Assembly (NCBI GenBank): GCA_900319835.1
Contig: ONPY01000010.1
Span: 1 to 37,816 of the forward strand
Source: an uncultured Eubacteriales bacterium
Lineage (GTDB): Bacteria > Bacillota_A > Clostridia > Oscillospirales > Oscillospiraceae
Direction of reading: 5' to 3'
Length of the DNA: 37,816 nucleotides
Below the pieces are notes generated by a model, which saw only the letters and a list, made by a program, of their open reading frames with translations, did not search any database and was not told the DNA's origin. Positions 11,405 through 36,112 of the stretch are shown piece by piece. A program made the translations under genes and the position numbers. Each line of letters opens with the position of its first letter. The stretch's first letter is position 1.

Positions 11405-13591
11405 TTATTCTTTTTCGTATTGCAGGCCGGATGCATTTTCAGGAGGTTCAGCCTCCAGACGCTCCTTTTCCAGTTCGATGATCGCGGCGGCAATGCTCTT
11501 TTCCGCTTTGATAGACTCGCTTCCTGTGGCCGATTCCTCCGCAAACAAATCAAACTGCTCCTGCTTTTCCCGCAGCAGCTCCAGAATCCGCTCATCCACA
11601 GTGTTGTCACAGAGCAGGCGGTGAACCATCACGCTGCGGATCTGTCCCATGCGGTAAGCTCTGGAGATGGCCTGGTTTTCAATGGAGGGCTTGATCTGGG
11701 GCTCACAGAAAATGATGACGCTGGCCGCCTGAATGTTCAGACCCGTTCCGCCCGCCTGCACCTGACAGATCAAGACGGCACCGTCCCCGGCTCTTGTAAA
11801 CTCGTCCACGATCTCCTGCCGCTTCTGTGCGGAGACGGAGCCGGTAATGGGCTCCAGTGCCCTCTCCCCCAGCACCTGCTGCACCGACCGGATGGTCTCC
11901 CGGAAGAAGGAAAAGACAATGACCTTTCTCCCGTCCTCTTTTGCCTCATTGCAAAGCTCCACAAGGCGTTTCGCTTTTGAGGAGCGGCTGAGGTCCGACA
12001 CATCCCAGGACACCTGCCGCATGGCCATAAAGTTCTCCGACATAACCGAGAGCATATAGCATTTCCACTCCTCGGATGTCATCTCCACCCACTGCTCTTT
12101 TTCAATCAGCTCGGGCAGCTCGCTGAGCACGTTGTCCCGTGTCCTGCGCAGATAGACCGGGGCCAGTTTCTCCCGAAACTGCGGCGCGGCGGAGATATAC
12201 TTCATCTCCTTGATCTCTCCTGCGATGTCAGGCCGTAGGCACCCGACGATAAAGCACATCTCGTCCACACGGTTTTCCAGGGGTGTGCCCGTCATATACA
12301 GCGTGCGCTGCGCCTTCCGTCCAAACTGCAGCAGCGCCTGTGTACGGCGCGCCTCCGGGTTTTTGACATAGTGCGCCTCGTCCGCCACCAGCAGAGAAAA
12401 ATGAAAGTCGCGGGGCAGCGCAAAGCGGCTGATGGACTCATAGGTCGTAACGGCCACGCCGCCCCGATCCTCCCAGCGCCTGGCAGCCATATAGTCGCCG
12501 CCCTTGATGAGCGTGACCTCCAGATCACTGAATTGCCTGATTTCCCTGGCCCAGTTGACCAGGACGCTGGCCGGACAGACCACCATGAAATGTGTTGCAC
12601 CCAGTGCCTTGAGCGAGACCATCACGGCGATGGCCTGCACCGTCTTGCCAAGACCCATCTCATCGCCCAGCAACACGTTTCCTTGCCGCAGGATGTAGCG
12701 CACGCCAAACTCCTGGTAGCTGCGCAAGGTGGCTTTCAGTCCGTCCACATAGATGGGCTGCTGCTCGACCTGGCGCACCAACTCCGCCGGCAGGCCGCTG
12801 TAGCTGTTGTCGATGCCGGCCGAAATTTCGTGGTCCAAACGATCCAGCTGCGCATAAAAGGAAGCGCTGTTTCTTGTAAAGTCAGCCCATACGCTCTCAT
12901 CACTCTGGCCTTCACGCCCGCTGTAGGCCTTCAGCAGCGCGTCGGCGCGCTGTCCGTACTCGCCTGTGAGCAGGCCGTAAAGAAAGAGCGCAGCATCGGC
13001 GGCTTTCTTTTTCTTTTCGGCGGAGGCGAACAGCCAGCGAAAGGCGGATGCCGCGGGCCTTGCGTCCTTGTAGGCTTCCGTCACACTTCCGTGGTAGGTA
13101 TCGTAGAGGTTCTGTGCTTCCCGGATATAGGGCCCGCAGACCATTTCACCCTTGAGCGCATGGAGCAGCCGGGTGCTCTCTTCATTTTGATCGTCCACAG
13201 CGATGCGCACCTTCAGTCCCGCCGAGACCTCCTGTCGAATCCGCCCCGCGATGGTGTAGATCAGGCAAGCCGCGTTATCGCCAATGCCTTTGATCTCGTT
13301 GATTTGATCCATCGTGAGGCTGCAGAGCGTGTGCATATCGGTCACACCGGCCGCGCGCAGGGATGCCACACGGATCCCCAGCTTGTCCCGGTTGATGCTC
13401 TCCACGTCCATGCCCCGCAGGATCGTCTCCGCCTCCCGCGCGCGCATCTGTGTCATGGCGTTTTCGGCGCTCTCCCTGTGCTCCTGCTCCAGGGCGGCGA
13501 TCTTTGCAATCTGCACATCATATTCCTCCACCAGAGAGAGGATGCGCTTGACCTGCTTTTTGTCCCGGAGACTCAGTCCTGTATGTTCCAT
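11405..13591 (-). CDS. SNF2-type DEAD/DEAH helicase
   Basis: A 728-residue superfamily 2 SNF2/Rad54-like ATPase (RapA/HepA-like class). These translocate along double-stranded DNA and remodel bound proteins. The N-terminal 60 residues are charged and probably coiled coil. A helix-hairpin-helix-like motif, EIKGIGDNAA, lies at 99-108. The motor begins near 285, with Walker A GDEMGLGKT (309-317), DEAH at 404-407, and motif VI AISRAYRMGQIRSVMVHRL near the C-terminus. It has no SWIM zinc finger or nuclease domain. It is not in an evident defence cluster. The start follows GGTGAG. A hairpin lies between it and the upstream pheB gene, so expression could be by read-through. Its biological role is unknown. 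Confidence 0.9.
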   Translation of the reverse strand: MEHTGLSLRDKKQVKRILSLVEEYDVQIAKIAALEQEHRESAENAMTQMRAREAETILRGMDVESINRDKLGIRVASLRAAGVTDMHTLCSLTMDQINEIKGIGDNAACLIYTIAGRIRQEVSAGLKVRIAVDDQNEESTRLLHALKGEMVCGPYIREAQNLYDTYHGSVTEAYKDARPAASAFRWLFASAEKKKKAADAALFLYGLLTGEYGQRADALLKAYSGREGQSDESVWADFTRNSASFYAQLDRLDHEISAGIDNSYSGLPAELVRQVEQQPIYVDGLKATLRSYQEFGVRYILRQGNVLLGDEMGLGKTVQAIAVMVSLKALGATHFMVVCPASVLVNWAREIRQFSDLEVTLIKGGDYMAARRWEDRGGVAVTTYESISRFALPRDFHFSLLVADEAHYVKNPEARRTQALLQFGRKAQRTLYMTGTPLENRVDEMCFIVGCLRPDIAGEIKEMKYISAAPQFREKLAPVYLRRTRDNVLSELPELIEKEQWVEMTSEEWKCYMLSVMSENFMAMRQVSWDVSDLSRSSKAKRLVELCNEAKEDGRKVIVFSFFRETIRSVQQVLGERALEPITGSVSAQKRQEIVDEFTRAGDGAVLICQVQAGGTGLNIQAASVIIFCEPQIKPSIENQAISRAYRMGQIRSVMVHRLLCDNTVDERILELLREKQEQFDLFAEESATGSESIKAEKSIAAAIIELEKERLEAEPPENASGLQYEKE

Positions 13592-17401: not shown

Positions 17402-18856
17402 TTACTTTTGAAAAGCACTTCGTTCGATCTCGGTAAAAATACCGCTCACGATCAGAAAGCTCAGTGAGGCAAAGCCTACCAGGCGGCTGAGCAGAACCTC
17501 CGCCATACCATAGAGCAGCAGCACTGCCAAAAAGACAACCAGCACCTTGTCCGCAGTGCGGACTCTTTCCGGTGGAGCAAAATAGAAGCGTACCATACGG
17601 ATCAGCTGCAGCAGCGCGAAGGCAGCCAGAAGCAGCGCGCCGGGAATGCCAGTCATCACAAGAGCCTGGATCACCATGTTGTGGGTGTGCTGCTTGACCT
17701 CCCGATAATCCCCGCGGGCATTGACCGCGTCCATCATCCCCTCTTCGGTCTGACCGAAGAGCGCTACCCTGGGTTCATCCCGCACGAGCCGCAGCGAGGC
17801 CTGCCAGATGTTGGTACGCTCCGTAAGCGTCAGAGCGTCGTGCAGAAAGCTGCGCGCATCCGAACCGGCACTCTGCGGAGCCGTTTCCGTTTCAACAGTC
17901 TCCTGGTCGTCAATCCCTGCCGCTTTCTGGGCCTCCTCCACCAATTTCATATATTCCTCATACTCCTGCTGATCGCGCTGTGAGACCTTCAACCCTTTTG
18001 CAAAGACGTCGGCACAGGTCCCGGTGGCCTTGAAGCACACCAGCAGCCCCAGTGCAGCGACCAGCGCCACCGCTCCCACGCGGATCGGCAGTGCCTTTTT
18101 CTGTATATGCGGCAGCAGCGCCAAGACAGCCAGCATTCCCACGCCGACGGAGGTCGCCACCTGGATGGAGCGGCAATGCTGCAGAGAAATCATCACCAGC
18201 ATGAGCGCCATATTGACCGCAATGGGAAAGCGCCACAGGCGTTTTTTGCAGGCGACCCACTCATAGGCAAGCAGGAAAAACGCCACTGCAAACCAAGCGG
18301 CGCTCATGTTGCGGACGGTCTGGAAAAACTCGATATTCTGTACCGCAAAGAGCGGATTGACGTTGATAAACCGTGCCAGTCCCGGGAAGGCGTCCTCGCC
18401 GCCGAACCAGACCAGCAGTCCCAAAATGGAGAGGACAAACAGCCAGCCGCCCGTGAGTCCGCAAAGCCAGTCCAGCAGCAGGCGCCGGCGTGCGGGATTT
18501 AAATACGCGCCTGCGGCAAAGATCCCCACACACACGGCGCTGAAATATAGGGAGGCAAAGAGCGTAAAATCGCGGTTGATGACGCGCGTGATCAGTACCC
18601 AGGCGCAGTAGGCCGCCAGGAGCCATAACTCCGGGGCAAAGCCGCGCCGCAGCTTGAAGGCAAAGAGCGCAAGCAGCAGGACGATCAATACCGCATGCAG
18701 GGCGCGCAAGGCATCGAATATCGGCTCACGGCCGGTCCAAATCAGATAGCGTTCCGCGAACAACACCAGATAATGCAGCGTGATCAAGAGTGCGAGAAGC
18801 CCGTAGAGATCGGCAATCCGCGCGGATTCCCGTATGTTTTTCAGCCGCTCCTTCAT
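17402..18856 (-). CDS. O-antigen ligase/polymerase-like membrane protein
   Basis: A 484-residue multi-pass membrane protein with about ten hydrophobic segments. A large outside-facing loop (about 275-375) contains TLTERTNIWQASLRLVRDEP, then GQTEEGMM, and HTHNMVIQALVMTGIPGALLL. The pattern R-x-x-x-W...HN...G-x-x-G is that of the Wzy_C/O-antigen-ligase superfamily, which joins or polymerises undecaprenyl-linked glycans at the outer face of the membrane. In Gram-positives such proteins make capsule, teichoic-type or glycoprotein glycans. It lies just beyond the surface-protein operon with its own promoter (18893-18921). It might glycosylate or decorate the pilus or wall, but this is context inference only. 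Confidence 0.75.
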   Translation of the reverse strand: MKERLKNIRESARIADLYGLLALLITLHYLVLFAERYLIWTGREPIFDALRALHAVLIVLLLALFAFKLRRGFAPELWLLAAYCAWVLITRVINRDFTLFASLYFSAVCVGIFAAGAYLNPARRRLLLDWLCGLTGGWLFVLSILGLLVWFGGEDAFPGLARFINVNPLFAVQNIEFFQTVRNMSAAWFAVAFFLLAYEWVACKKRLWRFPIAVNMALMLVMISLQHCRSIQVATSVGVGMLAVLALLPHIQKKALPIRVGAVALVAALGLLVCFKATGTCADVFAKGLKVSQRDQQEYEEYMKLVEEAQKAAGIDDQETVETETAPQSAGSDARSFLHDALTLTERTNIWQASLRLVRDEPRVALFGQTEEGMMDAVNARGDYREVKQHTHNMVIQALVMTGIPGALLLAAFALLQLIRMVRFYFAPPERVRTADKVLVVFLAVLLLYGMAEVLLSRLVGFASLSFLIVSGIFTEIERSAFQK

Positions 18857-18946: not shown

Positions 18947-20437
18947 TCAAGGCGCCAAGACCGCATCCGTCATCGGCACGCCGCCGGCAGAGCTGGCAGG
19001 CTCCATCAGGCCATGAATGACTGAACGCGCGTTTTCAAATACGTAGGCGCAGGTAGACAGCAGCACATATTTGCCGTCGGGAGACACTTCCACGTCGGCC
19101 TTCACGGTCGAAAGTTCCAGCGCCGTATAGAGATACCGCTCAAGCCCGGGTGACCGTTCGGGGAAAACCCGGTAGGTGTCCGAATAGGCCGAAATGGTAT
19201 AGGCACTGAACAGAGCGATTCGGTAGTCCTGCTCCGGTGTCAGCAGCCACATATAGGGGTGCTCGTCCAGATAGCTCTGCACCTGCCAATGGTCCAGGGT
19301 GGCAAACATGCTCTTGTCGCCCATGTGATGGCCATAAAGGATATTGTTGGCGTCCTGGAAATCCCGGCTGTTGGTCTCCTCCACAAAAATGGAGCCGGCT
19401 GCGTTGTAGCTCTTGTCATAGCTGTGGTGGAGATAATCGTCGTTGGTATCGCCGTGCAGAACGGGATAGTTGATGATTGTACCGGGGCAATAGATCCAAC
19501 CCGTGATATCCGGGTTGATCTTTTTCAATTCCGTAAAGTCTACCGTGATGGGCGCGACCTCAGGGATGCGCCTGGTCTCAGGATGGGAGTGGAAATCCAC
19601 ATCCGGAACCTCAAATACGATCGGCTCCGAAAACGCGGTAAACTTTGCCGCGGCCTCGTCGTAAATCTCCTCACTGATACGGTACTGGTGCCGGATAAAC
19701 AGGACCTGGGCGCCGGAGGCGCAGAATATCAGCAGCATCAGCCCCATGATCACGCCGCGGATCACCCGTTTCTTTTTCTTTTTTGAGGGCTTGGTGGACG
19801 CATCGTCGTCTTTGCCGTCTTTGAGCGCCTCCCCGTTCCCAATGCCCAGCTCCTGCAGGTTCATCTCCCGCAGGAAAGCGGACTCTGCAATCAATTCCCT
19901 CTCGTGATTGCGGCGCCGCAGGCGGCTTGCCAGGATGTTGAACATGACGCCGCAGGCGGCCAGACCCAGCAGATAGATTTTGCCAACCGTTCCGGTCAGC
20001 AGCGCCATGAAGCGCCCAATCACGGGGATGTGGCGCTCTACCCTGCCAATCAGGTTTTCATAGGGAATGGGCTCAAAATCATTGATCTCGTTGGCATCGC
20101 CCTTGGTGATAAATTTCCCGTCAAAGCCGTAATTCTCTACCACGCGGTGCGTCACGACATCCTCTTCACCGCGAGAAAAGGCAATGACGTCGCCGGGCTC
20201 GATCTCCTCAGGCGGGACCACTTTCGTATAGACGATACTGCCAACCGGAATCTCCGGCTCCATACTGCCGCTTATCACTTCAAACATCTCGTATCCCAGA
20301 ATTCTGGGCACGGTAAGCGATGCGCTGACGGCAATCACAGCCAGAAGAATCAGCGTTCCCAGAATGCCGCAAAGGGCGGGAAGAACGTTCCCGCCCTTGG
20401 GTTTACTTTCTTTAGAGGTAGGCATTGTTGTATTCAT
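18947..20437 (-). CDS. SipW-like signal peptidase fused to class B sortase
   Basis: One 496-residue open frame with two catalytic units. Part one (20-165) is a signal peptidase of the SipW/ER type: TM helix 20-42, Ser box SGSMEP with S58, H97 in VTHRVV (histidine where bacterial enzymes have lysine), D114 in KGDAN, and a second TM near 142-165. A charged, probably cytoplasmic linker (170-224, lysine run at 219-223) leads to a third TM (226-248). Part two (265-480) is a class B sortase: YGHHM with H370/H371, catalytic C463 in LSTCAY, and R471. SipW enzymes mature TasA-like fibre proteins, and class B sortases attach or polymerise surface proteins. Both substrate types are encoded just upstream. 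It overlaps the preceding gene by 4 bases. The frame is continuous, so this is a true gene fusion barring sequencing error. Confidence 0.9.
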   Translation of the reverse strand: MNTTMPTSKESKPKGGNVLPALCGILGTLILLAVIAVSASLTVPRILGYEMFEVISGSMEPEIPVGSIVYTKVVPPEEIEPGDVIAFSRGEEDVVTHRVVENYGFDGKFITKGDANEINDFEPIPYENLIGRVERHIPVIGRFMALLTGTVGKIYLLGLAACGVMFNILASRLRRRNHERELIAESAFLREMNLQELGIGNGEALKDGKDDDASTKPSKKKKKRVIRGVIMGLMLLIFCASGAQVLFIRHQYRISEEIYDEAAAKFTAFSEPIVFEVPDVDFHSHPETRRIPEVAPITVDFTELKKINPDITGWIYCPGTIINYPVLHGDTNDDYLHHSYDKSYNAAGSIFVEETNSRDFQDANNILYGHHMGDKSMFATLDHWQVQSYLDEHPYMWLLTPEQDYRIALFSAYTISAYSDTYRVFPERSPGLERYLYTALELSTVKADVEVSPDGKYVLLSTCAYVFENARSVIHGLMEPASSAGGVPMTDAVLAP

Positions 20438-21345
20438 ATTCTTTCATATTCTTCATCACGCCGTTTCTTTTTGCGGAAGAACAGCAGATACCAGTAAACC
20501 ACTGAGACCACACAGAAGAGCAACAGCACCAAAAGAATGATTCTCCACTTCGGAATCAGTCGGGAGGACTTTTCCGTTCTGCCCAGGATGGATGGGAAGT
20601 TGGCTGAGTTGCTGCCGCTGCCTCCGGCCAGAGGCACGTCCAGATCCACGATCTCCTGGGTTTCCGGGAACTCCTGCGCTGCGGTGGGCTGATTGCCGGT
20701 AGGATTGCCTGTCCCCGCGTTTGCTCCGGCATTTGCATTGGCATTTCCGCCCGCAGCGCCGCCGGTCTGTATGACTGTGGTTGTCGTTGTTGTGGTTGTC
20801 GGATAGTAAACAACGGATTCTGTTCTGTTCGACGTACCAAGTCTTGCCGTTGCGAAGTTCGCGCTGGGGCGGTACCCTTCAACATACGGGGTTTTGATCA
20901 GGATGGTGCTGTTCGGCTCGCCGTAGAAAATCTCCTGCACGCCAAGGTCGGTTCCGTCTGCGGTTGTACACCGGATGGTGAGGGCTACCTCGTTGCCGGG
21001 AATGCCATAGGCGACAACATAGTCCTGATCCCGCACCACTCTGACGTTCACCTCGTTCGTGCTGCTGGACGGTGTAATGATTTCCGAGTTGTCCTTTCCG
21101 CTCTCACGCAGTCCTCTTACGACATACTTGGAATTGGTGACCGTGACATCCGACTGAATGTTGAACGTAAAACTGCCGTCATAGGGGATATTGGCCTGAG
21201 TTGCGTGGTTTACAACGCTGCCCTGGTTGCCGCCAAAAACGCGAACTGTGTAGCTGTATTCACCGTCTGCCCACGCTCCGATTCCGAAACTCAAAAACAC
21301 CGTCAGCACAAAAAACAGAACGAAAAACTGTCTGCATTTCTTCAT
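20434..21345 (-). CDS. Membrane-anchored surface protein with MucBP-like domain
   Basis: A 303-residue exported protein. Signal peptide 1-26 (cleavage after AWA), then two beta-rich segments (30-120, and 121-182 resembling MucBP-type repeats: TTADGTDLGVQEIFYGEP...VEGYRP). A run of eight threonines (183-190) and a low-complexity Gly/Asn/Ala linker follow. A DVPLAG segment (236-241) resembles the stretch that often precedes sorting signals in clostridial adhesins. It ends with a TM helix (267-289) and an RKKKRRDEE tail, with no LPXTG. It is therefore likely held in the membrane, possibly as the base or anchor of the appendage. Overlaps the fusion gene by ATGA. Function is inferred from context. 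Confidence 0.75.
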   Translation of the reverse strand: MKKCRQFFVLFFVLTVFLSFGIGAWADGEYSYTVRVFGGNQGSVVNHATQANIPYDGSFTFNIQSDVTVTNSKYVVRGLRESGKDNSEIITPSSSTNEVNVRVVRDQDYVVAYGIPGNEVALTIRCTTADGTDLGVQEIFYGEPNSTILIKTPYVEGYRPSANFATARLGTSNRTESVVYYPTTTTTTTTVIQTGGAAGGNANANAGANAGTGNPTGNQPTAAQEFPETQEIVDLDVPLAGGSGSNSANFPSILGRTEKSSRLIPKWRIILLVLLLFCVVSVVYWYLLFFRKKKRRDEEYERI

Positions 21346-21348
21346 GCC

Positions 21349-22071
21349 TCAGCCTCTCTTTCCGTACTTGCGATCGGTGATCGCGTCAAGAGCCAGATAG
21401 AGGAACACAAGACCGCTGATAATCATGGCGATGTACAGCGGAACAAGGCGGTATTCGTCACCTGTTTTGACAATCGTGGTTCGCCTGGAGTTTTCCTGAG
21501 GCACTTCAACGGCAAAGCGCATGTTCAGCTCACCCTGGGTGTTTTGATACACATTGCTCTGTGTTTCACCGTCCAGCGTAACCGTTAAGTCCACTCTTCC
21601 GCTCTGGTTGCTGCCGATCGCGCCCAGCAGGAAGTAGTTCTCCAGACCGCTTGTGGCTTCCTTCATGCCCTCGCGTCCGTCAATTCCGGCTTCGCCGCCG
21701 ACGGTTGCGCTGTTAAAGATTTCCCGGGAAACGCCGGCCGGGTCGGTATAGGTCAGCAAATAGCTGTAGGCGCCATTGGTCGCGGAGCTGTGGGTCTCCA
21801 GAGATTCAACGACCTTGTTCCACATATAGAAATCGGCGCTCCTGGAATACAGATTGTTCAGCGGGATTTGAAGGACCATGGTATCCCCTGGCTCAAGCCG
21901 GGAAAGCGCCTGCGTCAGGTCCGCGTTCTTAAAGCGGTTCTCCATCTTTGCCGATGAAGTAAAATCCACGTTCCAATCTGAGCCTACCGTGTAGGTCTCC
22001 GCATAGGCAGAAAGAGAGAGACTGCCGAACAAAAGCAGCATCAGGAGCAAACTGATCATTCTTTTTTTCAT
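21349..22071 (-). CDS. Surface protein with non-canonical KTGDE sorting-like tail
   Basis: A 240-residue exported protein, unnamed to me. Signal peptide 1-24 (SAYA/ET), then about 175 residues of probable beta structure containing WNVDFTSSAKMENRF and GRVDLTVTLDGETQ. The C-terminus reads IVKTGDE (200-206), then a hydrophobic stretch (211-231) and DRKYGKRG. Motif, hydrophobic helix and positive tail in this order are what a sortase sorting signal looks like, with KTGDE in place of LPXTG. It could be a substrate of the class B sortase domain or simply membrane anchored. The start follows AAGGAGGAGC. It is 3 bases from the next gene, so tightly coupled. Confidence 0.72.
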   Translation of the reverse strand: MKKRMISLLLMLLLFGSLSLSAYAETYTVGSDWNVDFTSSAKMENRFKNADLTQALSRLEPGDTMVLQIPLNNLYSRSADFYMWNKVVESLETHSSATNGAYSYLLTYTDPAGVSREIFNSATVGGEAGIDGREGMKEATSGLENYFLLGAIGSNQSGRVDLTVTLDGETQSNVYQNTQGELNMRFAVEVPQENSRRTTIVKTGDEYRLVPLYIAMIISGLVFLYLALDAITDRKYGKRG

Positions 22072-22082
22072 TTTGCTCCTCC

Positions 22083-22829
22083 TTATTGATAAGTGCCCCA
22101 GGCGCTAATTCTTGCTGCGTCGCCGTTATGGGTCTGCACAGCATCCACCTGAACTTCGACTACGAAACCGATTCCATTGTACGCGTAATTGTAAACGGTC
22201 TTGCTGCCGTCCTCTGTGATGGTTTCTTTCACATACTTCAACACGTCACTTTTTACCGTCAGTTTATCGGCAAAAGGCGTGGAAGTCTCGCCCGGGTTCA
22301 AAAAATTCTGATAATAAAGCACCGTTCTCTCTTTTGATCCAACGCTGGCCTCATCATCAATTACCCATCCGTTGCCGGTAACAAAATGAAGGTCAATCAA
22401 ATCCGGGTCAAGGAAAACCTTCTTTTTCCCTTCACCGTCGATCCAGCCGTTTTCAAGCCGTCTGCCGTTGTGATCCACCCAGTACTTATACACGGACACG
22501 CGAACCATCTGCGCGATGCCGCCCTGTTCAATGGAAGGCGCACTGTTTTGGACCTGTAAAACTGTGTCATAGCTGCGGCCGATCTGGAAGCTCTCCCCTT
22601 CTCCGACAAGGGATGTGAGGATATCCCCCCGCTGGCCGTCGCTGGCAATGAATTTCTCGTTTTCCAGCAGCGCAACGCTGATATTCCCCAAACGAATCTG
22701 AGAATCGTAAATATCCGACTCGATATTCAGTGCCGCGCGCGTGCCGCCGACAGAACCAAACGCGAGCAGAAACACAGCCAGCAGAAGCAGGGCTGCGGAG
22801 AAGATCGGTGAACGAAAGACTTTTTTCAT
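22083..22829 (-). CDS. TasA/camelysin-like SipW-dependent protein (long)
   Basis: A 248-residue exported protein. The leader ends GSVGGTRAALNIESDIYDSQI, which is the look of SipW-processed leaders (G-x-x-x-RAAL then an aromatic/acidic segment), followed by LGNISVALLEN, typical of TasA-like beta-sandwich proteins. The centre carries VQNSAPSIEQGGIAQMVRVSVYKYW, resembling the strand where TasA proteins bear their conserved arginine. No C-terminal anchor. TasA of Bacillus forms biofilm fibres after SipW cleavage. Overlaps the gene before it (22826-23335) by 4 bases. The SipW-like domain encoded at the end of this operon is the obvious processing enzyme; the pairing is inference. Confidence 0.75.
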   Translation of the reverse strand: MKKVFRSPIFSAALLLLAVFLLAFGSVGGTRAALNIESDIYDSQIRLGNISVALLENEKFIASDGQRGDILTSLVGEGESFQIGRSYDTVLQVQNSAPSIEQGGIAQMVRVSVYKYWVDHNGRRLENGWIDGEGKKKVFLDPDLIDLHFVTGNGWVIDDEASVGSKERTVLYYQNFLNPGETSTPFADKLTVKSDVLKYVKETITEDGSKTVYNYAYNGIGFVVEVQVDAVQTHNGDAARISAWGTYQ

Positions 22830-23335
22830 GATTCGCTCCCTCCCACCTTCTCAACTTTTCCGATCTCCCAGGAGGTTTTCAAATCCGCCTTTCCATCCGT
22901 TGTGTAGGCCACGGGAACACTCTCACAGACGACAATGACGTTAAAATGATCGTCTTTGATGTTCTCTTCGGGGATGCCGCTGATGCTGATTGTGATGTCT
23001 CCGGTGAGAGCGCCGCCTTCAACGGGCAGCGTATAGCGCCAGAAGCCGTCCTCATCCACCTCCCAATTCTCTCCGCTGTACTGGAGTGGGAATGCATCGC
23101 CGGAAAAGCCTTTCACTCGCACAAAGACCGGCGCGGCGGTCTCCTTGTTTTCGACGGAGACAATTTTCCTGCGCTCACCATACTTTTCGTGGATTTCCGT
23201 CTCTCTCCCGTAGGTCAGGATATAGCCGCCCTTTGCGGTGGTATACGTGGTAAAGTACGCCATGGCGGGTCCAACGCCCGCCCCCAGGACCAGAACAAGC
23301 GCAAGCAGGGCGAGCAGCCATTTTTTTATCTTCAA
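22826..23335 (-). CDS. TasA-like SipW-dependent protein (short)
   Basis: A 169-residue exported protein with a leader ending GPAMAYFTTYTTAKGG. AYFT immediately after the hydrophobic core is the hallmark of SipW-type substrates (ATLAYFTD in TasA). The rest contains PVFVRVKGF (an RVK strand like the TasA core), WEVDEDGFWRYTLPVEGG and FNVIVVCESVPVAYTTDG, a two-layer beta pattern. No transmembrane helix or sorting signal at the C-terminus. It overlaps both neighbours by 4 bases, so it is made in fixed ratio with them. Likely a fibre subunit or chaperone-like minor component; not proven. Confidence 0.75.
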   Translation of the reverse strand: MKIKKWLLALLALVLVLGAGVGPAMAYFTTYTTAKGGYILTYGRETEIHEKYGERRKIVSVENKETAAPVFVRVKGFSGDAFPLQYSGENWEVDEDGFWRYTLPVEGGALTGDITISISGIPEENIKDDHFNVIVVCESVPVAYTTDGKADLKTSWEIGKVEKVGGSES

Positions 23336-24546
23336 TTGCTCTCGCCTCCGTCCGTTATGTCTCGAATCACGTCAGGATCCGTGTTGGTGGGATTAGCCCA
23401 GCCGGAGCCATTGTTGGTGTAGTGGTTGACAATGCCGCTGCCGTACGTTACGGTCTCATCCCATTCGTTAGTGAACGCCGCGCTTGCCAGGGTCTCTCCA
23501 TTCAGGATCAATCCGTTCTCGGCCATGATCGCGGTCAGAGTTTTCTGCCCGGCAGACTGATAATGTGCCCCGGCATATTCCTCCGTCACGGTGACCTCCG
23601 CGCCGATCGGGATCGCCTTTTCAAGGGTCAGTTCTTTTGTTCCCGCGCTGGAGAAGGTGATGGATTTAACGTCGCTGTACACTGTTTTCTTGTTTTCGCC
23701 ATCCCCCATGGTCGCTTCAATGCGGAAGATGAAAAATGCGTCCTCCGGGCCAACCGCTTTGGAAAGCGTTTTGGTAATCTTCAAATCTGCCAGGCGGTCT
23801 TCTGCGGTAGGTTTCAGCACCGCTTCCACTTTGTAGATCCATTCGCCGGGAGTCTCGGTTGAAACCGCGCCATCGACTGTGTCCTTATAGGGTACGGTTA
23901 CCAGCGCCGGCGTATAGATGAAGTTTTTATCATCAGAATGGACAATGCTGGCCAGGGTGTTGGGCGCCCCGTCTTCCCCCTCAATCTCTTTCCAATAATC
24001 GCGCTCATCTGTGTGCGCAATCAGCAAATAAAGACCAAGATTGGCGTTTGCAGCCTCCGGCTCTTCCTCCTCCGCTTCACGCTTGCCGACAGACAGGGTT
24101 GCCTTTTTCGTCAAGCTCTCCTTTCTGACCAGCGCGGCGGCATCCTGTGCCAGTCTGCTCCAGGTATCGCTGGTGATTTTCTGGTCGGATGCAATCTGTC
24201 CAAACCCGCCGAGGACTTCTTTTAATTCTGTCCTCGGTTCTTCCTCCCCGTCGGCAGGAGGCGTCTGGGTCTCAACCCAGAGCGGCAGATCCCGGCATTC
24301 CTCTGTAAACGTGAATTCAAAGCGTCCGCCGTTATCCATGCTTACATCCGCTACCTGATAGATGTCCACATATACCTTGACATCTTTCAAAGCCTCTTTC
24401 AATTCCTTGTTCGAATCAGACGCGGGCTTTGCCGTAATCGTCGCATCTTCCGCGAAGGCGGCCGGGGCGAGCGCCCAGACAAGGCATGCCGTCAGCAGCA
24501 GCGCAAGGAGCCTGCGGCCATATTTCCTTTTCACAATCATCTCCAT
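23332..24546 (-). CDS. Pilin-like protein lacking a wall anchor
   Basis: A 404-residue exported protein from the ATG at 24546 (AGAGG at good spacing; an ATG two codons upstream is too close). Signal peptide ends APAAFA. The C-terminal half (from DLKITKTLSKAV) is like the FctA/Spy0128 pilin domain: a lysine near the start, VTVTEEYAGAHYQ around the glutamate, and AFTNEWDE with the asparagine expected to close an isopeptide bond. It ends without LPXTG or a membrane helix. About 20 residues from its end is NPTNT, reminiscent of the NPQTN motif read by class B sortases, but no hydrophobic helix follows. Probably a minor or tip pilin joined by an unusual route. Stop overlaps the next gene by 4 bases. 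Confidence 0.75.
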   Translation of the reverse strand: MEMIVKRKYGRRLLALLLTACLVWALAPAAFAEDATITAKPASDSNKELKEALKDVKVYVDIYQVADVSMDNGGRFEFTFTEECRDLPLWVETQTPPADGEEEPRTELKEVLGGFGQIASDQKITSDTWSRLAQDAAALVRKESLTKKATLSVGKREAEEEEPEAANANLGLYLLIAHTDERDYWKEIEGEDGAPNTLASIVHSDDKNFIYTPALVTVPYKDTVDGAVSTETPGEWIYKVEAVLKPTAEDRLADLKITKTLSKAVGPEDAFFIFRIEATMGDGENKKTVYSDVKSITFSSAGTKELTLEKAIPIGAEVTVTEEYAGAHYQSAGQKTLTAIMAENGLILNGETLASAAFTNEWDETVTYGSGIVNHYTNNGSGWANPTNTDPDVIRDITDGGESN

Positions 24547-24576
24547 AGACATTCCTCTTTCTCATGCGACTCCGTG

Positions 24577-25485
24577 TTACAGGTCAAAGGTGTCGTCAAA
24601 AAGGTCGTCCTCCATGCCGGGGATTTTTTTCTTTCTTCGGGTCATGAACAGCATCACGACCAGGAAAATAAACAGCAGCGGGATTCCCACTGCGGGAATG
24701 GTCATATAGCGCGGCAGCATGACCGCCTCCGCACTCACTACCAGTTCCCCGGCCTCGTTTGCGACGCGGGTCCCGCGAACCAGCAGACGGTGAGTGTTGA
24801 TACCATAGGGCGTACAGGTGACCAGCGTACAGTAATCTTCGCCGGGTACGGTGGCGAGATCCGAAACATCCCCGGGTTCCACGATGCGGATTTGATCCAC
24901 CTCATAGGTGATGGTCTGGTTGAGCACCGTGATGGTGAAGCGGTCTCCCTCCTTGATCCGGTCCAGATCGGTAAAGAGCTTGGCGCTCGGCAGGCCTCTG
25001 TGCCCGGACAGCACCGTATGGGTGCTCTCGCCGCCAACAGGAAGCGCGGTCCATTCCACATGGCCCACAGCGATTTGCAGCACAGATTCCTCCGTGGTGT
25101 GATAAACTGGAATGTTGACCTTGATGGAAGGGATCTGGATATAGCCCATCAGACCGGTACCGGAGAGGTTCAGGAGATTGTTGTAGGCCTCCATATCCTC
25201 GTCCGTCATGGCAAAGGGGTTCTCCTTGTCCAGCAGTGCGCGGTTGTATGCCCGCGCCGCTTCCAGCATGGCTTCCAGCTCTCCGGTGTCGGTCTCCTCC
25301 ACCTGTTTGGAGTAGGAGGCGATGGCCTGTGTGGAGTGGAAGGAGTTCCACCAGTCGCTGACCGTGGGATACGCCATGATGGCCGCGCCCAGGAACATGA
25401 TCAGCAGCAGGATCCAGGTGGAGCCGCCGGACTTTTTCTTTTTCTTTTTTTGAAGAGTGGCCGCTTCCGGCGTTTGTACGTTCAT
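24577..25485 (-). CDS. srtC: Class C (pilin-polymerising) sortase
   Basis: A 302-residue class C sortase. It links pilins by joining the LPXTG threonine of one subunit to a lysine of the next. N-terminal TM 23-40 follows a lysine run (13-18). Catalytic residues are H162 (LSGHRG), C224 (LVTCTP) and R233 (THRLLVRG). A second TM near the C-terminus (263-282) and RRKKK tail are typical of class C. The lid that covers the active site normally has DPF/DPW; here it reads NPF (89-91), with asparagine for aspartate. Start follows GGAG at 6 bases. Its substrate is most likely the LPSTG pilin encoded just upstream. Confidence 0.93.
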   Translation of the reverse strand: MNVQTPEAATLQKKKKKKSGGSTWILLLIMFLGAAIMAYPTVSDWWNSFHSTQAIASYSKQVEETDTGELEAMLEAARAYNRALLDKENPFAMTDEDMEAYNNLLNLSGTGLMGYIQIPSIKVNIPVYHTTEESVLQIAVGHVEWTALPVGGESTHTVLSGHRGLPSAKLFTDLDRIKEGDRFTITVLNQTITYEVDQIRIVEPGDVSDLATVPGEDYCTLVTCTPYGINTHRLLVRGTRVANEAGELVVSAEAVMLPRYMTIPAVGIPLLFIFLVVMLFMTRRKKKIPGMEDDLFDDTFDL

Positions 25486-25623: not shown

Positions 25624-27249
25624 TTATTTGTCGTTGTCGACACGCTTCTTGGTCACAAGCAGGACACCGCCGACGACCAGGAGCAGACCGCCGACCACGT
25701 AGAAGATGGTGGTGCCGATGCCGCCGGTGCTGGGCAGCTCAGTGCCGGCCATGTTGACAATGTTTTCGCTCTGGGAGAGATTCTCGACGCTGTAGTTGCC
25801 CGCGGCAATGGTGATTGCAGGAATCTTTCTTGCCTCGTTGTAGCCGGCGGGAACCGTCTTCTCCACCAGGGTGTAGGTGCCATTGGCAAGGCCGGTGAAG
25901 GTAATCTTGGCAACCTTCTCGGTCTTGTCGCCGACGGTCTCCTCTTTTACCTCGGTGATGTACTCGGTCGCATCCTCAACGCTGTCAACCCAGACAACAC
26001 CTGCGGGCTGTGCGTCCTTGGCCGGGACATAGTCGCTTGCGCCCTCAGTTCCCTGAGCGGGAACGGCCTCAACCGCTTCTGCATTGAACTTGTAGTACTT
26101 GCCATCGGCATTCTTCAGAACAAAGCCGGCCCCGGCAAGGGCTGCGCTCTTGTCGTCAACCTTGAAGACGGTGATCTCAGCGGTCCAAACCTTGGACTGG
26201 TCCTCGGTATAGTCCTTTACAGTCTTGTGGCCCCATTCGAGTCTGGCAGAGTTGTCATTGCTGTTGGAAGCCACAACAGCATCCTTGTTCAGCGTTGCGG
26301 TGTATTCGATCGTGATCGTCATATCGGCAGAGATAGTATTCAGATAGGCATTTGCAAAGCTGACGGTAATGACCTGACCGGTGACGTCGACAGTGTAGTC
26401 AACTCCCTCCTGAGCGGCCTCTCCGGCCTTTACGGCCTTTACGGAGACAGCGCTTGCAGCAGGAGGAGTCAGTCCGGCCGCAAGGGTATCGGTCACGACG
26501 TAGTTCTCAGCGCCGGGCTTGGCCCCGATCGTCAGCTTGTAAGTAATGGTGTCGCCGATCTGAGCGATCGCATGCTCATTGGCGCCTTGGCCAACGTCGG
26601 CCATTTCGGCGGATGCAGCCTCTCCCTCACCGGTGACATTGGAGATACTGCCGTGGGAAACCGCGGTGATTACCTTATCCAGCGTGGGGGGGTTGTTCTT
26701 GTCCTGAACGGTCACGTTGGGATTGTTGCTGTCCACGCTGACAAAGGAACCGAGGGAGGAGTCCACAAAATAGTAGCCAAAAGGCAGATCCGCCCACTTG
26801 ACTTCCGTTTCAGCGGAAGCGGCAGTGATGGGATCTTTCCCAGCCACTTTCACGCCGAACGCACGGGCCCAAGCCATAGCATCGGCGTCCTTGGCCCACT
26901 GGGCGTTCACACCGTCAGCCGCGACAACATAGCCATTTTCGACTTTGAACCACTGGCGCACTTTGCTTTCGGAAACCTTGTACTTCAGAGCATCTTCGTC
27001 CTTGCCTTCGGGGAGTGTGTACGTGACAGCAATCATGTTTCCATCGTCATCAAAGCTCATTCTTGCATCAAAGAGCTTATAGAGCGTATAGGTCTGGCCA
27101 ACGTTCGGAGAAGCAACCTGCACAGAACCGCTGGTCGGCTGGGCGACCGGCTCATCGTCAGTTGCATACGCAGTCAGGGAACCAAGGGAGATGACCAGCA
27201 CCGCCGCGAGAAGGAATGCAAGAAATTTCTTCACCTGTTTCATTTTCAT
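25624..27249 (-). CDS. Major LPXTG pilin, SpaH/EbpB-like
   Basis: A 541-residue surface pilin backbone. Signal peptide ends LTAYA (about residue 29). The likely pilin-motif lysine is K192 in PPTLDKVI, the acceptor for polymerisation by a class C sortase. A middle D-type domain begins near KPGAENYVVTDTLAAG, and a Cna-B-type domain near the end contains the E-box YTLVEKTVPAGYN. The sorting signal is LPSTG (505-509), followed by a hydrophobic helix and KKRVDNDK. This is the classic SpaA/SpaH/EbpB backbone layout. Two starts four bases to six bases from the RBS are possible (27249 or 27243). It is preceded by its own promoter and followed by a hairpin and srtC. Confidence 0.94.
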   Translation of the reverse strand: MKMKQVKKFLAFLLAAVLVISLGSLTAYATDDEPVAQPTSGSVQVASPNVGQTYTLYKLFDARMSFDDDGNMIAVTYTLPEGKDEDALKYKVSESKVRQWFKVENGYVVAADGVNAQWAKDADAMAWARAFGVKVAGKDPITAASAETEVKWADLPFGYYFVDSSLGSFVSVDSNNPNVTVQDKNNPPTLDKVITAVSHGSISNVTGEGEAASAEMADVGQGANEHAIAQIGDTITYKLTIGAKPGAENYVVTDTLAAGLTPPAASAVSVKAVKAGEAAQEGVDYTVDVTGQVITVSFANAYLNTISADMTITIEYTATLNKDAVVASNSNDNSARLEWGHKTVKDYTEDQSKVWTAEITVFKVDDKSAALAGAGFVLKNADGKYYKFNAEAVEAVPAQGTEGASDYVPAKDAQPAGVVWVDSVEDATEYITEVKEETVGDKTEKVAKITFTGLANGTYTLVEKTVPAGYNEARKIPAITIAAGNYSVENLSQSENIVNMAGTELPSTGGIGTTIFYVVGGLLLVVGGVLLVTKKRVDNDK

Positions 27250-27627: not shown

Positions 27628-28209
27628 TTACTTAACAGTACCAAAAGCGTTCAGCGGCCACACGCGCCACAAAAGGCGCCCCACAACGGCATCGTCGCTG
27701 ATGCATCCAACGGTGCTGTTTCGGCTGTCCACGCTGGTCAGCCGATGATCCCCCATGACGAAGCACTTTCCGTCCGGGACCTGATACGGGAAGCCGATGT
27801 TGCATTCTCCGAGCGCTTTCTCTTCCAGATAGGGTTCCTCCAACTGAACACCGTTGACGTAGACGTTACCGTCGCTGTCAATATCCACCCAGTCTCCGGC
27901 GTATGCGATCACGCGTTTGACCAGAATGCTGTTGTTGAAATAAAAGGCGATGACGTCTCCGGTCCTGTAGGCGTGATCGTTGACTGTGACCACGATGTCC
28001 TTGTCCTCCAGCGTCGGGGACATGGATTCACCGCTGATCTGCAAAACCGGCAGCAACAGCACAGAAAGGATCACCGCGACCGCCATCACGACCAGCAGGG
28101 AGTAAATGGTACTCCGCAGTGTCCTGCCGTAATTCTTTCTGTAGCGTTCCTTCTTCAGCGCCTCTTCCAGCTGTTCGGCGGTAGGAAACCATATTTCGTT
28201 TTCTTCCAT
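27628..28209 (-). CDS. lepB: Type I signal peptidase (bacterial Ser-Lys type)
   Basis: A 193-residue signal peptidase I from the ATG at 28209 (a GTG four codons upstream has no room for a ribosome binding site). A 30-residue charged N-terminus precedes one TM helix (33-56), then the catalytic serine S62 in GESMSP, and K98 in LVKRVIA. GDHR...DSR near residue 150 is the conserved box E, so the enzyme is complete. It removes ordinary Sec leaders. It sits in the pilus locus 27 bases downstream of the coiled-coil gene, as signal peptidases often do in pilus islands. It differs in mechanism from the SipW-like domain in the fusion gene. Confidence 0.94.
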   Translation of the reverse strand: MEENEIWFPTAEQLEEALKKERYRKNYGRTLRSTIYSLLVVMAVAVILSVLLLPVLQISGESMSPTLEDKDIVVTVNDHAYRTGDVIAFYFNNSILVKRVIAYAGDWVDIDSDGNVYVNGVQLEEPYLEEKALGECNIGFPYQVPDGKCFVMGDHRLTSVDSRNSTVGCISDDAVVGRLLWRVWPLNAFGTVK

Positions 28210-28236
28210 GTGGTCCCCCACCCTTCTGCTTCTGAT

Positions 28237-29369: not shown

Positions 29370-29573
29370 TTACTCCTTGCCAAGTACTTTGTAATCCTGT
29401 GCTTCCACAGCGGCCTTCAGGATTTCAAAGTCCACGCTGCCGGTGACAACTGCGGTTCCCTTCTCATGGCTGACGACAGCGCTCTCCACGCCTTCGACGG
29501 CCTCCAGGGCCTTCTTAACACGGGCTTCGCAGTGCGGGCACATCATACCTTCAATCTTCATGGTCGTGATCAT
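29370..29573 (-). CDS. Possible internally started CopZ-like copper chaperone
   Basis: Inside the copA frame, AGGAGG (29587-29582) is followed after 8 bases by ATG (29573). Starting there gives a 67-residue protein consisting only of an HMA domain with GMMCPHC, exactly the size and content of CopZ. CopZ carries Cu(I) to CopA. The likeliest history is a csoR-copA-copZ operon whose copA stop was lost, joining the two frames while leaving the copZ ribosome binding site in place. Whether the free form is produced is not shown by sequence alone. Confidence 0.55.
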
Positions 29574-31892
29574 CGTTGTTTCCTCCTCAGTATTTTGAAT
29601 TTGTATGGTTTGACTTGCCAGATTCTTTATTCTCGGTTTATCATGGCTCGCGTCATGGACCTTGATGAGATTCAGCCGCAGAGCGTTGGATACCACGCAG
29701 AAGCTGGACAGGCTCATAGCCGCAGCGCCCAGCATGGGATTGAGCGTCAGGCCCGCCCACACGAAGACGCCAGCTGCCACCGGGATGCAGATGGCATTGT
29801 AGAAGAACGCCCAGAAGAGATTCTCATGGATATTGCGCAGCGTCGCCCGGCTGAGCCGTATGGCAGCGGAGACATCCAGCAGGCTGCCGTGCATCAGCAC
29901 CACGTCCGCCGCGTCCACCGCAATGTCTGCGCCGGCGCCGATAGCAATACCAATATCAGCTCGCGTGAGGGCGGGCGCGTCGTTGATCCCATCGCCCACC
30001 ATGGCCACCTTGCCGTATTTGGAAAGAGCGCGTATGGTGCTCTCCTTTCCGTCAGGCAACACGCCCGCGATCACCTGATCGACACCGGCCTGACGGCCGA
30101 TGGCATCGGCGGTGCGCTGGTTGTCGCCGGTGAGCATCACAACCTTGACGCCGAGATTTTTCAGCTCCTGAATGGCCTGGGCGCTGTCCGGCTTCATCAC
30201 ATCAGCCACGGCAATGACGCCCAGCAGCTTTCCGTCCAGGGCAAAGAGCAGCGGCGTCTTTCCCTCTCCGGAGAGCGTGTCACACCTGTTCTGCAGCGTT
30301 TGAGGAATGTCAGCTAGTCCGCCGATATACTTCCGGCTCCCGCCGATCAGCGTGCTCCCATTGAGCGAAGCTCTAAGTCCGTTGCCGGGCAGCGCTTTGA
30401 ACTCTGTCACGCTCGCGGGGACAAGGCCCTGCTCCGCCGCATAGGCCATCACTGCGCTTGCCAGCGGATGTTCGCTCATCGCTTCAAGCGAAGCCGCGGC
30501 AGAGAGCAGCTGCTGCTCAGTGCAGCCCTCCGCAGGGATCAAATCTGTCACCCGGGGCGTACCTGCCGTGATGGTTCCGGTCTTGTCCAGCGCCACCACA
30601 TCCACGCGTCCTGTCTCTTCCAACGCGGCCGCGGTCTTGAAGAGGATCCCCTGCTTGGCGCCCACGCCGTTGCCTACCATGATGGCCACCGGCGTTGCCA
30701 GTCCCAGTGCGCAGGGGCAGCTGATCACCAGCACGGAGATACCGCGCGCCAGCGCAAATCCGATGTCCTTACCACAGAGCAGCCAGACCACGGTTGTCGC
30801 CAAGGCGATGGACATGACCACCGGGACAAACACACCCGAGACCTTGTCCGCGACCTTCGCGATCGGCGCTTTCGTCGCCGCGGCATCGCTGACCATGCGG
30901 ATAATCTGGCTGAGCGTTGTATCCTCTCCCACGCGGGTCGCTTCGCAGCGGATAAAGCCCACCTGGTTGACCGTGGCCGCAGAGACCAGGTCCCCCGGCT
31001 CCTTGTCCACTGGAATACTCTCGCCTGTCAGTGCGGATTCATCCACAGCGCTGGTGCCCTCCAGAACAACCCCGTCCACCGGAATATTCTCCCCCGGCCG
31101 CACGACAAAAATATCACCCTTTTTCACGTTCTCAATGGGGACGGTTTTCTCTTCCCCCTTGATCACAAGCGTCGCCGTTTTAGGCGCGATCTTCATCAAA
31201 CCCTTGAGCGCGTCGGTGGTCTTGCCCTTGGAGCGCGCCTCCAGCATCTTGCCCACCGTGATCAGAGTCAGGATCATGGCGGCGGATTCAAAGTAGAACT
31301 CATGCATCCAGGCCATGGCGGCCTCTGAGCCTCCGCTGACTTGTGCCCCGGTCATACGAAAGAGCGAATAGGTGCTGTAGACAAAGGCCGCGCTGGAGCC
31401 CAGCGCCACCAGCGTATCCATATTGGGCGCTCGATGGAGCAGGCCCTTGAAGCCGCTGATAAAAAACTTCTGGTTAATCACCATGACCGTGATGGCCAGC
31501 AGCATCTGTATCAGGCCCATGGCCACATGGTTCCCGACCAGGAAGGCGGGCAGCGGCCAGCCCCACATGCTGTGTCCCATAGAGACATACATCAGCAGCA
31601 GCAGGAAACCAAGGGAGGCGAAAAGTCTCCGTTTCAAAACCGGCGTGTCGCGGTCTGCCAGTGCATCCTCATCGGCAGAGGCCGCTTTTTCCGCCCCCTT
31701 GAGACTGGCACCGTAGCCGGCAGCTTCCACAGCGGCAATGATGCTCTGATCGTCCGCCGTCCCCTCAACACCCATGGAGTTGGTCAGCAGGCTGACGGAG
31801 CAGGCTTCAACGCCCGGCACGCCGGACACCGCTTTTTCTACCCGGGCGGAGCACGCGGCGCAGCTCATGCCGGTCACATTATATTGTTTCAC
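29370..31892 (-). CDS. copA: Copper-exporting P1B-type ATPase with C-terminal HMA domain
   Basis: An 840-residue CopA. It pumps Cu(I) out of the cytosol. N-terminal metal-binding HMA domain with CAAC (11-14), eight expected TM helices, CPC motif in [13 protein letters not shown], phosphorylation site DKTGT, SEHP, and [10 protein letters not shown] are all present. Unusually, a second HMA domain with CPHC (785-788) is fused to the C-terminus. The DNA just before it carries AGGAGG at the correct distance from an in-frame ATG, so that domain may also be made alone. The gene starts 14 bases after csoR and shares its copper-controlled promoter. Confidence 0.96.
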
Positions 31893-34297: not shown

Positions 34298-36007
34298 TCA
34301 TATAGCGATTTGGCATGGGGCGTAGTTGACGACTACGCCTTTTCTCGTATTCACGGACACCTGCGGGGCGGGTAAAGGGAACACATCGGGAATGAAGATC
34401 GCTCCCACACAGTTGTAATGAATGGTCAACCTCTGTTCCCACTTGCCGTCGATCTTCTCCGCCTGATGGACCTCGATGCGCTCGATCAGCTCATTCAGCA
34501 TCCTGGGCGTCAGTTTCTTGGCCCGTGTGTATTTGCGGACGGTGGAGATGAACATATCAGAAGTCATGGCCCTGCTGCCCAGCGCGTCCATTTCGGAGCG
34601 GAGCGCCTTGATCTTTTCAGCAAGCTCCTTCTGCTCCTGTTCATACCGGCGGGACATTTTGGCAAAACGGTCGTCGCTGAGCTTGCCGGAAACATTGTCC
34701 TCATAGATACGCTCAAACAATCCATCCAGTTCTTCGTCACGGGCTTGCAGCGACGCAAGCTCTTTTTGTTTCAGCCTGCGGCCAAGCTCCACGCTTTCCT
34801 GGGTGCTGCCCATCACCGCTTTTACGAAATCGTCCTCATAGTGACTGGCAAACTTCGTCAGCCGCTTGATCTCACCAAGCACCACCTGTTCCAGAAAGTC
34901 CACCCGGACATAATGGGTAGAGGTACAGGTCCCCCGGTTGCCCTTATAGTTGGAACAGTTGAAATACTTGATATCGGGGTTGCCCTGGTTGAAATGGAAG
35001 TGGAGGTTATTGCCGCAATCGGCACACACCAGCAGACCGGAAAACATATTGCGTTCCCCATCGTTGGTACGGCGCTTGCGTATCTTTCCTCGCTTCTGCT
35101 GGACCTGCTCCCACATGGCACGGTCAATGATCGGCTCATGCACATCCTTGAAAATGACCCAGTTTTCACGGTCATTCTCAATCCGCTTTTTGTTCTTGTA
35201 GGATTTGGAATAGGTCTTGAAGTTGAGGATATCGCCGCAATACTCCTGCAGGGACAGTATCTTTGTGATGGTGGAGCTGTTCCATTTCGTCGGAGGCTGC
35301 TGCTTGCCTTTTCCGGGCCTCTTGATGCCCTTCTGGAGCCAATAGGCCCGCGGGGTGAGGATACCTTCCCGCTCAAGCTGGGCGGCGATCTGCTCCGTCC
35401 CAAGCCCGTCCAGGGTCATGCCGTAAATGTGTCTGACCACCTGGGCCGCTTCATCGTCCACGATCCAACGCTTAGGATTGTCGGGGTCTTTGATGTACCC
35501 GTAGGGAGGTTGTCCCATCGGCTCACCGGCGTTCCCCTTGATCTTGTTGCTGATACGGCGCTTCTTGCTGATATCGCGTGCGTACCATTCGTTGAACAAA
35601 TTGCGGATCGGAGCCAGCTCATTTTCACCTTCGGCGGTGTCGATGTTGTCGGATACCGCCACCAGGCGGATGTCATGTTCCGGGAAAAATTCCTCGGTCA
35701 ATCGTCCGACCTCTATGTAGTTGCGGCCCAGACGGGAAAGGTCCTTTACGAACACGGCAGCAGCGCGTCCTTCTTCAAGCTGACGGATCATCTCCACAAA
35801 ACCGGGGCGGTCCATCGTGACGCCTGAAATACCATCATCCAGGAAATGCACCAGGTTGGTATAGCCTTTCTCCTTTGCCACTTTGGTGAGGAGCTTCTTT
35901 TGGTTGCCAATGCTATAACTCTCACCTTCCAGATTATCGTCACGGGAAAGCCTCTCATAGAGGAAGGCCGTCACGTCACGGGATTTTTTGTTGTTCGACT
36001 GTCTCAT
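34298..36007 (-). CDS. Large serine recombinase of an integrative element
   Basis: A 569-residue site-specific recombinase from the ATG at 36007 (AAGGAGG). The resolvase-type catalytic domain (1-150) has S21 in YERLSRDD and the conserved VFVKDLSRLGRNY. The Recombinase domain follows (about 170-290), then a zinc-ribbon with CADC...C...C, a long coiled-coil region, and a C-terminal DUF4368-like end (RKGVVVNY). This is the type found in Tn1549/Tn916-like elements of gut Firmicutes. It would cut and rejoin att sites for integration and excision. It is the last gene of the element and its stop almost touches the tRNA-Leu terminator. Complete, with no frameshift. Confidence 0.95.
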   Translation of the reverse strand: MRQSNNKKSRDVTAFLYERLSRDDNLEGESYSIGNQKKLLTKVAKEKGYTNLVHFLDDGISGVTMDRPGFVEMIRQLEEGRAAAVFVKDLSRLGRNYIEVGRLTEEFFPEHDIRLVAVSDNIDTAEGENELAPIRNLFNEWYARDISKKRRISNKIKGNAGEPMGQPPYGYIKDPDNPKRWIVDDEAAQVVRHIYGMTLDGLGTEQIAAQLEREGILTPRAYWLQKGIKRPGKGKQQPPTKWNSSTITKILSLQEYCGDILNFKTYSKSYKNKKRIENDRENWVIFKDVHEPIIDRAMWEQVQQKRGKIRKRRTNDGERNMFSGLLVCADCGNNLHFHFNQGNPDIKYFNCSNYKGNRGTCTSTHYVRVDFLEQVVLGEIKRLTKFASHYEDDFVKAVMGSTQESVELGRRLKQKELASLQARDEELDGLFERIYEDNVSGKLSDDRFAKMSRRYEQEQKELAEKIKALRSEMDALGSRAMTSDMFISTVRKYTRAKKLTPRMLNELIERIEVHQAEKIDGKWEQRLTIHYNCVGAIFIPDVFPLPAPQVSVNTRKGVVVNYAPCQIAI

Positions 36008-36112
36008 TAGTCCTCCTTTCCGGGAACAGCCGGACAACTTTTTTCTCGCACGATATCTTCATGCTTATATTATACCGCGCCCAGCGATCCCTTGTCAGCC
36101 GGTTTTGATAGG

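Follow-up and report, generated by a model that had tools for sequence, protein, structure and literature searches.

The window analyzed here is a stretch of 37,816 nucleotides, contig ONPY01000010.1 (assembly GCA_900319835.1) of an uncultured Eubacteriales bacterium from the Oscillospiraceae. Its minus strand carries a gene at 18947..20437 whose 496-amino-acid product joins a SipW-type signal peptidase to a class B sortase (SrtB), as judged from family models and residue conservation. The fusion is the last gene of a cassette that reads, along the minus strand, class C sortase, g406, g169, g248, g240, g303, and fusion; from the class C sortase gene onward, neighboring genes are spaced by −4 to 24 bases.

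Domain organization and conservation of the fused protein

The frame starts with an ATG at 20437, and its stop codon ends at 18947, giving 496 codons; the plus strand across this interval is interrupted by stops. The protein consists of a signal peptidase domain (residues 15–166), a linker rich in Lys and Arg (K/R; residues ~171–224), and a sortase domain (residues 224–474). In NCBIfam, residues 15–166 match TIGR02228, the model for endoplasmic reticulum (ER)/SipW-type signal peptidase I, with 99.7 bits (cut-off 51.85), and residues 224–474 match the class B sortase model TIGR03064 with 174.9 bits (cut-off 153.75). Both curated cut-offs are exceeded, and the proposal of the first-pass annotation that one uninterrupted frame carries both enzymes holds true for the minus strand. 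The score with the Bacillus SipW equivalog NF046067 is 84.1 bits, under the cut-off of 190; the protein is SipW-like and lies outside that equivalog. A Pfam search reported the sortase half alone. Sequence comparison with solved structures returned sortase B over residues 296–469 and, more weakly, SEC11 signal peptidase subunits over residues 51–148 (E 3.5e-7).

Generally, ER/SipW-type signal peptidases use a Ser-His catalytic pair instead of Ser-Lys. A protein search with the fusion scored 7994 candidates, 780 of them at E ≤ 0.001, and the best 120 of these were aligned with the window protein. Both domains are present in 120 of the 121 aligned sequences (in P0110 the first was not recognized by this criterion), and 118 of the two-domain set are nearly full length. 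Among the 120, the signal peptidase residues Ser58 and His97 are each kept in 118, Asp114 in all, and Asp120 in 119; of the sortase residues, His370 and Cys463 are invariant and Arg471 is found in 119. Ser58, His97, Asp114, His370, Cys463, and Arg471 occur together in 116/120, the exceptions being P0029, P0046, P0094, and P0117. Ser58, His97, Asp114, Cys463, and Arg471 are the positions that had been named at the outset, while the catalytic His, given then as either His370 or His371, can be narrowed to His370, position 371 being His in 109 sequences and Asn in 11. This conservation bears on the possibility that the signal peptidase half only docks leaders without cutting them. Such a role is modeled on Streptococcus pyogenes SipA, which, according to the accessible part of the source, has no catalytic pair and is nevertheless indispensable for pilus polymerization (PMC4049620). 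With Ser58, His97, and Asp114 retained almost throughout, we regard a mere dock as highly improbable.

The window locus is known from a single assembled sequence, which leaves room for an artefact such as a chimeric contig or an overlooked stop. No in-frame stop is present between residues 170 and 250, the region in which a missed stop or frameshift would have spoken against the fusion. In addition, 119 other two-domain sequences occur among the relatives listed, so the homologues are not always separate genes; one of them is 99% identical to the window protein and represents 26 member sequences. Misassembly and a missed stop are ruled out by these sequences, and an artefact deserves practically no weight. 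Judged by eye, no ribosome-binding site with a start was seen inside the linker, although the sortase may still be translated separately. The fusion is real and conserved, and its parts belong to known families. The relatives come from metagenome-assembled genomes of Oscillospiraceae, Eggerthellaceae, Atopobiaceae, and Coriobacteriaceae, and their source names, where given, cover one half only (class B sortase, sortase B, or signal peptidase I). No description of a SipW-SrtB fusion was found among the titles and abstract beginnings of open-licence full-text literature, which does not establish its absence from print; the accessible parts of two reviews treating SipW and sortases together make no mention of it (PMC5817068, PMC12445088).

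Three hydrophobic segments start at residues 19, 151, and 230. Residues 171–224 contain 15 K/R in 54 positions (28%), the corresponding shares for the outer domains being 8% and 7%. Since this K/R-rich linker lies between hydrophobic segments, the positive-inside rule places both active sites outside; the three transmembrane (TM) helices with external active sites proposed earlier therefore stand as a prediction. The AlphaFold model, built on an alignment of 24 sequences, has a mean predicted local distance difference test score (pLDDT) of 80.2 and a predicted TM-score (pTM) of 0.56, and starts N-terminally with a helix, continues through a beta domain and a pair of long helices broken at 198–217 by a stretch of low confidence, and ends in the sortase. 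Foldseek found the SrtB fold, with 4lfd as the best match (E 2.7e-20, TM-score 0.79 on the target) and a probability of 1.00 to 4lfd, 1ng5, 5b23, and 3psq, the last being Spy0129 of S. pyogenes. The top 50 rows are sortases throughout, a list that does not probe the signal peptidase half.

The protein thus resembles the SipW/ER-type signal peptidases of Bacillus subtilis (SipW-TasA) and Clostridium perfringens (SipW-BsaA) in its TIGR02228 match, Ser-His site, and BsaA/TasA-like operon, but differs from them in its C-terminal sortase and its NF046067 score. With the class B sortases Staphylococcus aureus SrtB, S. pyogenes Spy0129, and SrtB of C. perfringens and Clostridioides difficile, it shares TIGR03064, the fold, and the Cys-His-Arg residues. 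However, the solved structures listed contain the sortase alone, whereas in the window protein a signal peptidase precedes it, and most members of its clade are linked to a SipW cassette.

Cassette genes and candidate substrates

All genes of the locus lie on the minus strand. An ordinary signal peptidase I (27628..28221, TIGR02227), part of the locus and outside the conserved cassette, is located 378 bases upstream of the gene for a SpaH/EbpB-type major pilin with an LPSTGG anchor (25624..27249), which ends 138 bases before the class C (pilus) sortase gene (24577..25485; NF033745, 276 bits against a cut-off of 160). It is followed by g406 (23332..24552), a secreted protein without an anchor whose DUF7601 and DUF5979 matches fall under their cut-offs. 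Next are two BsaA-like proteins with SipW-type leaders and no anchor, the short g169 (22826..23335, TTG start as called) and g248 (22083..22829). The BsaA model TIGR04090 matches, at E ≤ 0.01, 7/10 aligned members of the g169 family and 34/56 of the g248 family (55 relatives, drawn from the best 120 of 239), although neither the window's own g169 nor its g248. Compared by sequence with solved structures, g248 found no useful relative (best E 0.75).

The next gene, g240 (21349..22071), encodes an ordinary-looking leader, a beta-rich domain that is weakly TasA-like, and a C-terminal IVKTGD motif followed by a TM segment and a positive tail. In its family alignment (the best 120 of 631 relatives plus the window protein), the sorting-like tail [VA][KQR]TGD is near-invariant, and the sortase B target model TIGR03063 matches 7/121 members, the window's g240 not being among them. 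Through this IVKTGD tail, g240 is proposed as a candidate SrtB substrate. Its best match among solved structures by sequence is 8qag (a designed-type name; E 0.0034), confined to the TM tail, and hhalign aligned it to g248 with 19.5% probability over 37 columns. Finally, g303 (20434..21345), which overlaps the fusion by 4 bases, has a leader, a C-terminal TM segment, and a positive tail, without a conserved sorting motif; MucBP matches 8/10 aligned members of its family, and not the window's own protein. The upstream genes had been described as encoding both SipW-type leaders and sorting-like tails. The leaders were found on g169 and g248, whereas a sorting-like tail is present in g240 only.

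Distribution and evolution of the fusion

Species genomes were sampled from the class of G003, the order of G001, and the family of G007, a match being taken as E ≤ 1e-60. Matches occur in 3/197, 13/197, and 51/299 genomes, respectively, and a fused frame in 1, 1, and 3; in the class and order samples, the one genome concerned is the centre genome itself. The fused architecture is widespread yet sparse, and it is rare in the sampled species genomes (5/693). The fused relative in G001 scores 140.7 bits with TIGR03064, under the cut-off. Among plasmid records, 44 match part of the fusion and none covers 80% of the query.

For comparison of gene arrangements, 80 of the confirmed cases (at least 587) were combined with the loci of the genome samples; the resulting 148 loci, the window included, were reduced to 129 by dropping 19 short duplicates, near-copies such as L019/L141 (405 of 434 residues alike), L008/L010, and L044/L113 being left among others. 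These comprise 96 SrtB-only loci, among them ones cut by contig ends (L007 and L012 surely), 14 split, 11 SipW-only, and 8 fused. The active-site residues are kept in all eight fused loci. The suggestion that the fusion always sits with TasA-like genes did not hold: BsaA-like genes adjoin it in five of the eight, and in a sixth, L003, which lies at a contig edge, g240 alone is present. Besides L003, a cassette accompanies the fusion in the window, L001, and L140 (no class C sortase recognized), and L019 and L141 contain three BsaA-like genes and a separate SipW in addition to the fusion. No cassette gene is present on the contigs of L004 (10.5 kb), where the fusion is set among other genes, and L139 (7.8 kb), where it adjoins a CHAP-domain protein.

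In all 14 split loci, SipW precedes SrtB, and 13 have cassette genes upstream, the exception being L006. The two genes of L138 directly adjoin in the same frame, parted by one in-frame TAG, those of L005 overlap by 4 bases, and 7/14 pairs are 16–51 bases apart; L006 and L009 have longer gaps, L006 beginning at a contig edge and holding a 181-aa frame between the two genes. For L134, L135, and L146, no gap is given, since the starts as called probably lie too far upstream. Seven SipW-only loci clearly carry a full cassette (L128, L129, L130, L131, L133, L143, and L144). As for the others, the contig of L147 ends 747 bases behind SipW, that of L145 starts 409 bases before it, L132 has no cassette gene, and L050 contains two unrelated minus-strand signal peptidases. 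Because split and SipW-only cassettes exist, the fusion is not required. These data lend themselves to a neutral explanation, in which neighboring co-translated genes merged as an outcome of operon order, the halves keep their own substrates, and the only gain is equal dosage. The closeness of the split genes, the persistence of split and SipW-only cassettes, the rarity of fusions, and a linker that ranges from 23 to 262 residues between the domain matches of the two-domain sequences all agree with it.

Phylogenetic trees of the two halves speak to the same question. In the SipW-domain tree (32 of the 121 aligned sequences plus loci; 65 of 67 rows kept, the split rows falling from 14 to 12), the fused label needs five changes, at least three of which are forced by starred branches. 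The SipW-only L128 sits inside the fused group to which the Coriobacteriia belong, a position suggesting that its sortase half was lost. At the expected place of SrtB, L128 has a second protein of 720 aa matching the g303 profile (L128:10398-12560). A sortase tree built on 20 of the 121 and every second solitary SrtB warned of joined long branches. The sortase tree used for tests (63 rows: 13 of the 121, about every fourth solitary SrtB, and six named) groups 17/20 fused and 14/14 split rows with three solitary ones (L014, and the contig-edge loci L007 and L012) in a single starred clade; the fused L140, L019, and L141 are found among solitary sortases. A single clade of all fused sortase halves was rejected by the approximately unbiased (AU) test (p 0.00087), as was one of all SipW-linked sortases (AU p 0.00014). 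Fused and split rows intermingle in the main clade at unresolved forks, and a single origin there is not supported either. The fusion thus probably arose at least twice, the second event being likely rather than certain because L140, L019, and L141 stand on long stems. Occurrence in both Clostridia and Coriobacteriia, with a probable re-formation from another SrtB lineage, argues against the neutral explanation in a suggestive manner, short of proof, and we consider that explanation doubtful.

Several other arrangements were noticed in the survey. A class B sortase forms the C-terminus of proteins of 1632–1640 aa (L046:5912-10810, L061:1930-6852, L075:5891-10813, L076:5900-10813, and L078:5918-10819), which is another kind of sortase fusion. 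A gene pair of ~380–430 and 160–175 aa, possibly regulatory, lies beside the cassette or SrtB in L005:6501-8368, L006:1835-3688, L012:618-2373, L129:10116-11747, and L133:1787-3573, and its first member occurs alone in L145:5894-7138. Small genes follow SipW/SrtB in L008:12402-16235, L129:12724-15282, L133:11449-15327, and L145:2013-5792; we take these to be pseudopilin-like and PilC/PilT-like. Two SipW-only cassettes hold tandem class C sortases (L143:3218-5012 and L144:4106-5865).

Proposed function and related systems

We hold it somewhat probable that the fusion is a bifunctional membrane enzyme building an anchored, SipW-dependent surface structure, its SipW half maturing g169 and g248 and its SrtB half anchoring g240. 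It is known that SipW cleavage readies TasA for assembly. By the proposed mechanism, the N-terminal half (Ser58-His97 with Asp114/Asp120) would cut the SipW-type leaders off g169 and g248, allowing these to polymerize, and the C-terminal half (His370-Cys463-Arg471) would cleave g240 between the T and G of IVKTGD. The cleaved g240 would then be joined to the wall, or to the neighboring pilus, so that this fibre would end in an anchored g240 subunit, and a single chain would keep both steps at one membrane site in a 1:1 ratio. Leader cleavage and attachment had been expected to act on the same substrate, which does not fit the genes: a sorting tail is missing from g169 and g248, the proteins with SipW-type leaders, and g240, which bears one, starts with a leader that looks, by eye, like an ordinary type I one. 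Since the SipW leaders and the sorting tail sit on different proteins, coupling would join subunits of one assembly.

One observation weighs against this bifunctional reading, namely that SipW-only cassettes retain the KTGD tail. No association of SrtB presence with the KTGD tail was found across the surveyed loci. A class B sortase does occur elsewhere in 9/9 genomes with a SipW-only locus (7 over cut-off, including 6 of the 7 with a clear cassette), which is weak support because all 24 genomes searched have one (21 over cut-off), compared with 0/14 controls.

The nearest parallel is the S. pyogenes pilus operon, which, in the accessible parts of the sources, likewise brings together a class B sortase (Spy0129), a signal peptidase homologue (SipA), and a class C sortase (Spy0135) (PMC3019223, PMC4049620). 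Spy0129 polymerizes the pilin, cutting EVPTG between T and G as proposed for the IVKTGD of g240, and SipA is needed for polymerization (PMC4049620). Yet the S. pyogenes enzymes are separate, SipA lacks the catalytic pair that the fusion keeps, and those texts mention no BsaA-like proteins. This parallel raises another role for the sortase half, namely polymerizing or linking pilins instead of wall anchoring, a view with which the presence of 3psq in the Foldseek list agrees. On the other hand, the cassette already holds a class C sortase beside its LPSTGG pilin, a weak objection, since acceptor Lys motifs were not searched for. We judge pilin linking unlikely.

In C. perfringens, a class B sortase gene also accompanies SipW and BsaA, srtB lying in the 5' flank of the sipW-bsaABCRSD operon; these genes are separate, and the accessible part of the paper does not mention a class C pilus (PMC7395162). 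According to the same text, BsaA is retained in the cell without SipW, whereas deletion of srtB leaves BsaA polymers and pellicles unchanged (PMC7395162). A role of the sortase as BsaA polymerase is disfavored because of this latter result. For Bacillus cereus, the available text describes TasA-CalY filaments as sortase-independent (PMC13082335); an anchored fibre would therefore differ from the B. cereus type.

Extending the bifunctional reading, we tentatively put forward, as possible though less than probable, a maturase-anchorase: a single enzyme would free TasA/BsaA-like subunits of their leaders and covalently attach a KTGD-tailed, TasA-like end subunit, so that SipW-made fibres would be anchored by a sortase beside a class C pilus, the fusion having been selected at least twice for setting the ratio of free to anchored subunits. 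If true, there would be a class of SipW-made fibres that is sortase-anchored, unlike the Bacillus ones. In most accounts, distinct enzymes trim the leaders of surface proteins and fix these proteins to the wall, each in its own step; with a fusion that is conserved and has probably recurred, their coupling becomes open to direct test, and fibre making and anchoring may be physically coupled. The cassette also links SipW/TasA-type matrix fibres and sortase pili, systems usually treated apart, and g240 is the anchor protein that it predicts for fibres made by SipW.

Elsewhere on the minus strand of the window, an O-antigen ligase-like (Wzy_C) membrane protein is encoded 90 bases downstream of the fusion (17402-18856). 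A SNF2-type helicase (11405-13591) has as its best NCBIfam match a "pilus expression-regulating Snf2 family helicase" (216.7 bits against a cut-off of 1100). Also encoded are a copper-type P-type ATPase (29370-31892) with a CopZ-like stretch at residues 776–836, and a recombinase (34298-36037) whose similarity to Ccr and XisF recombinases falls under their cut-offs.
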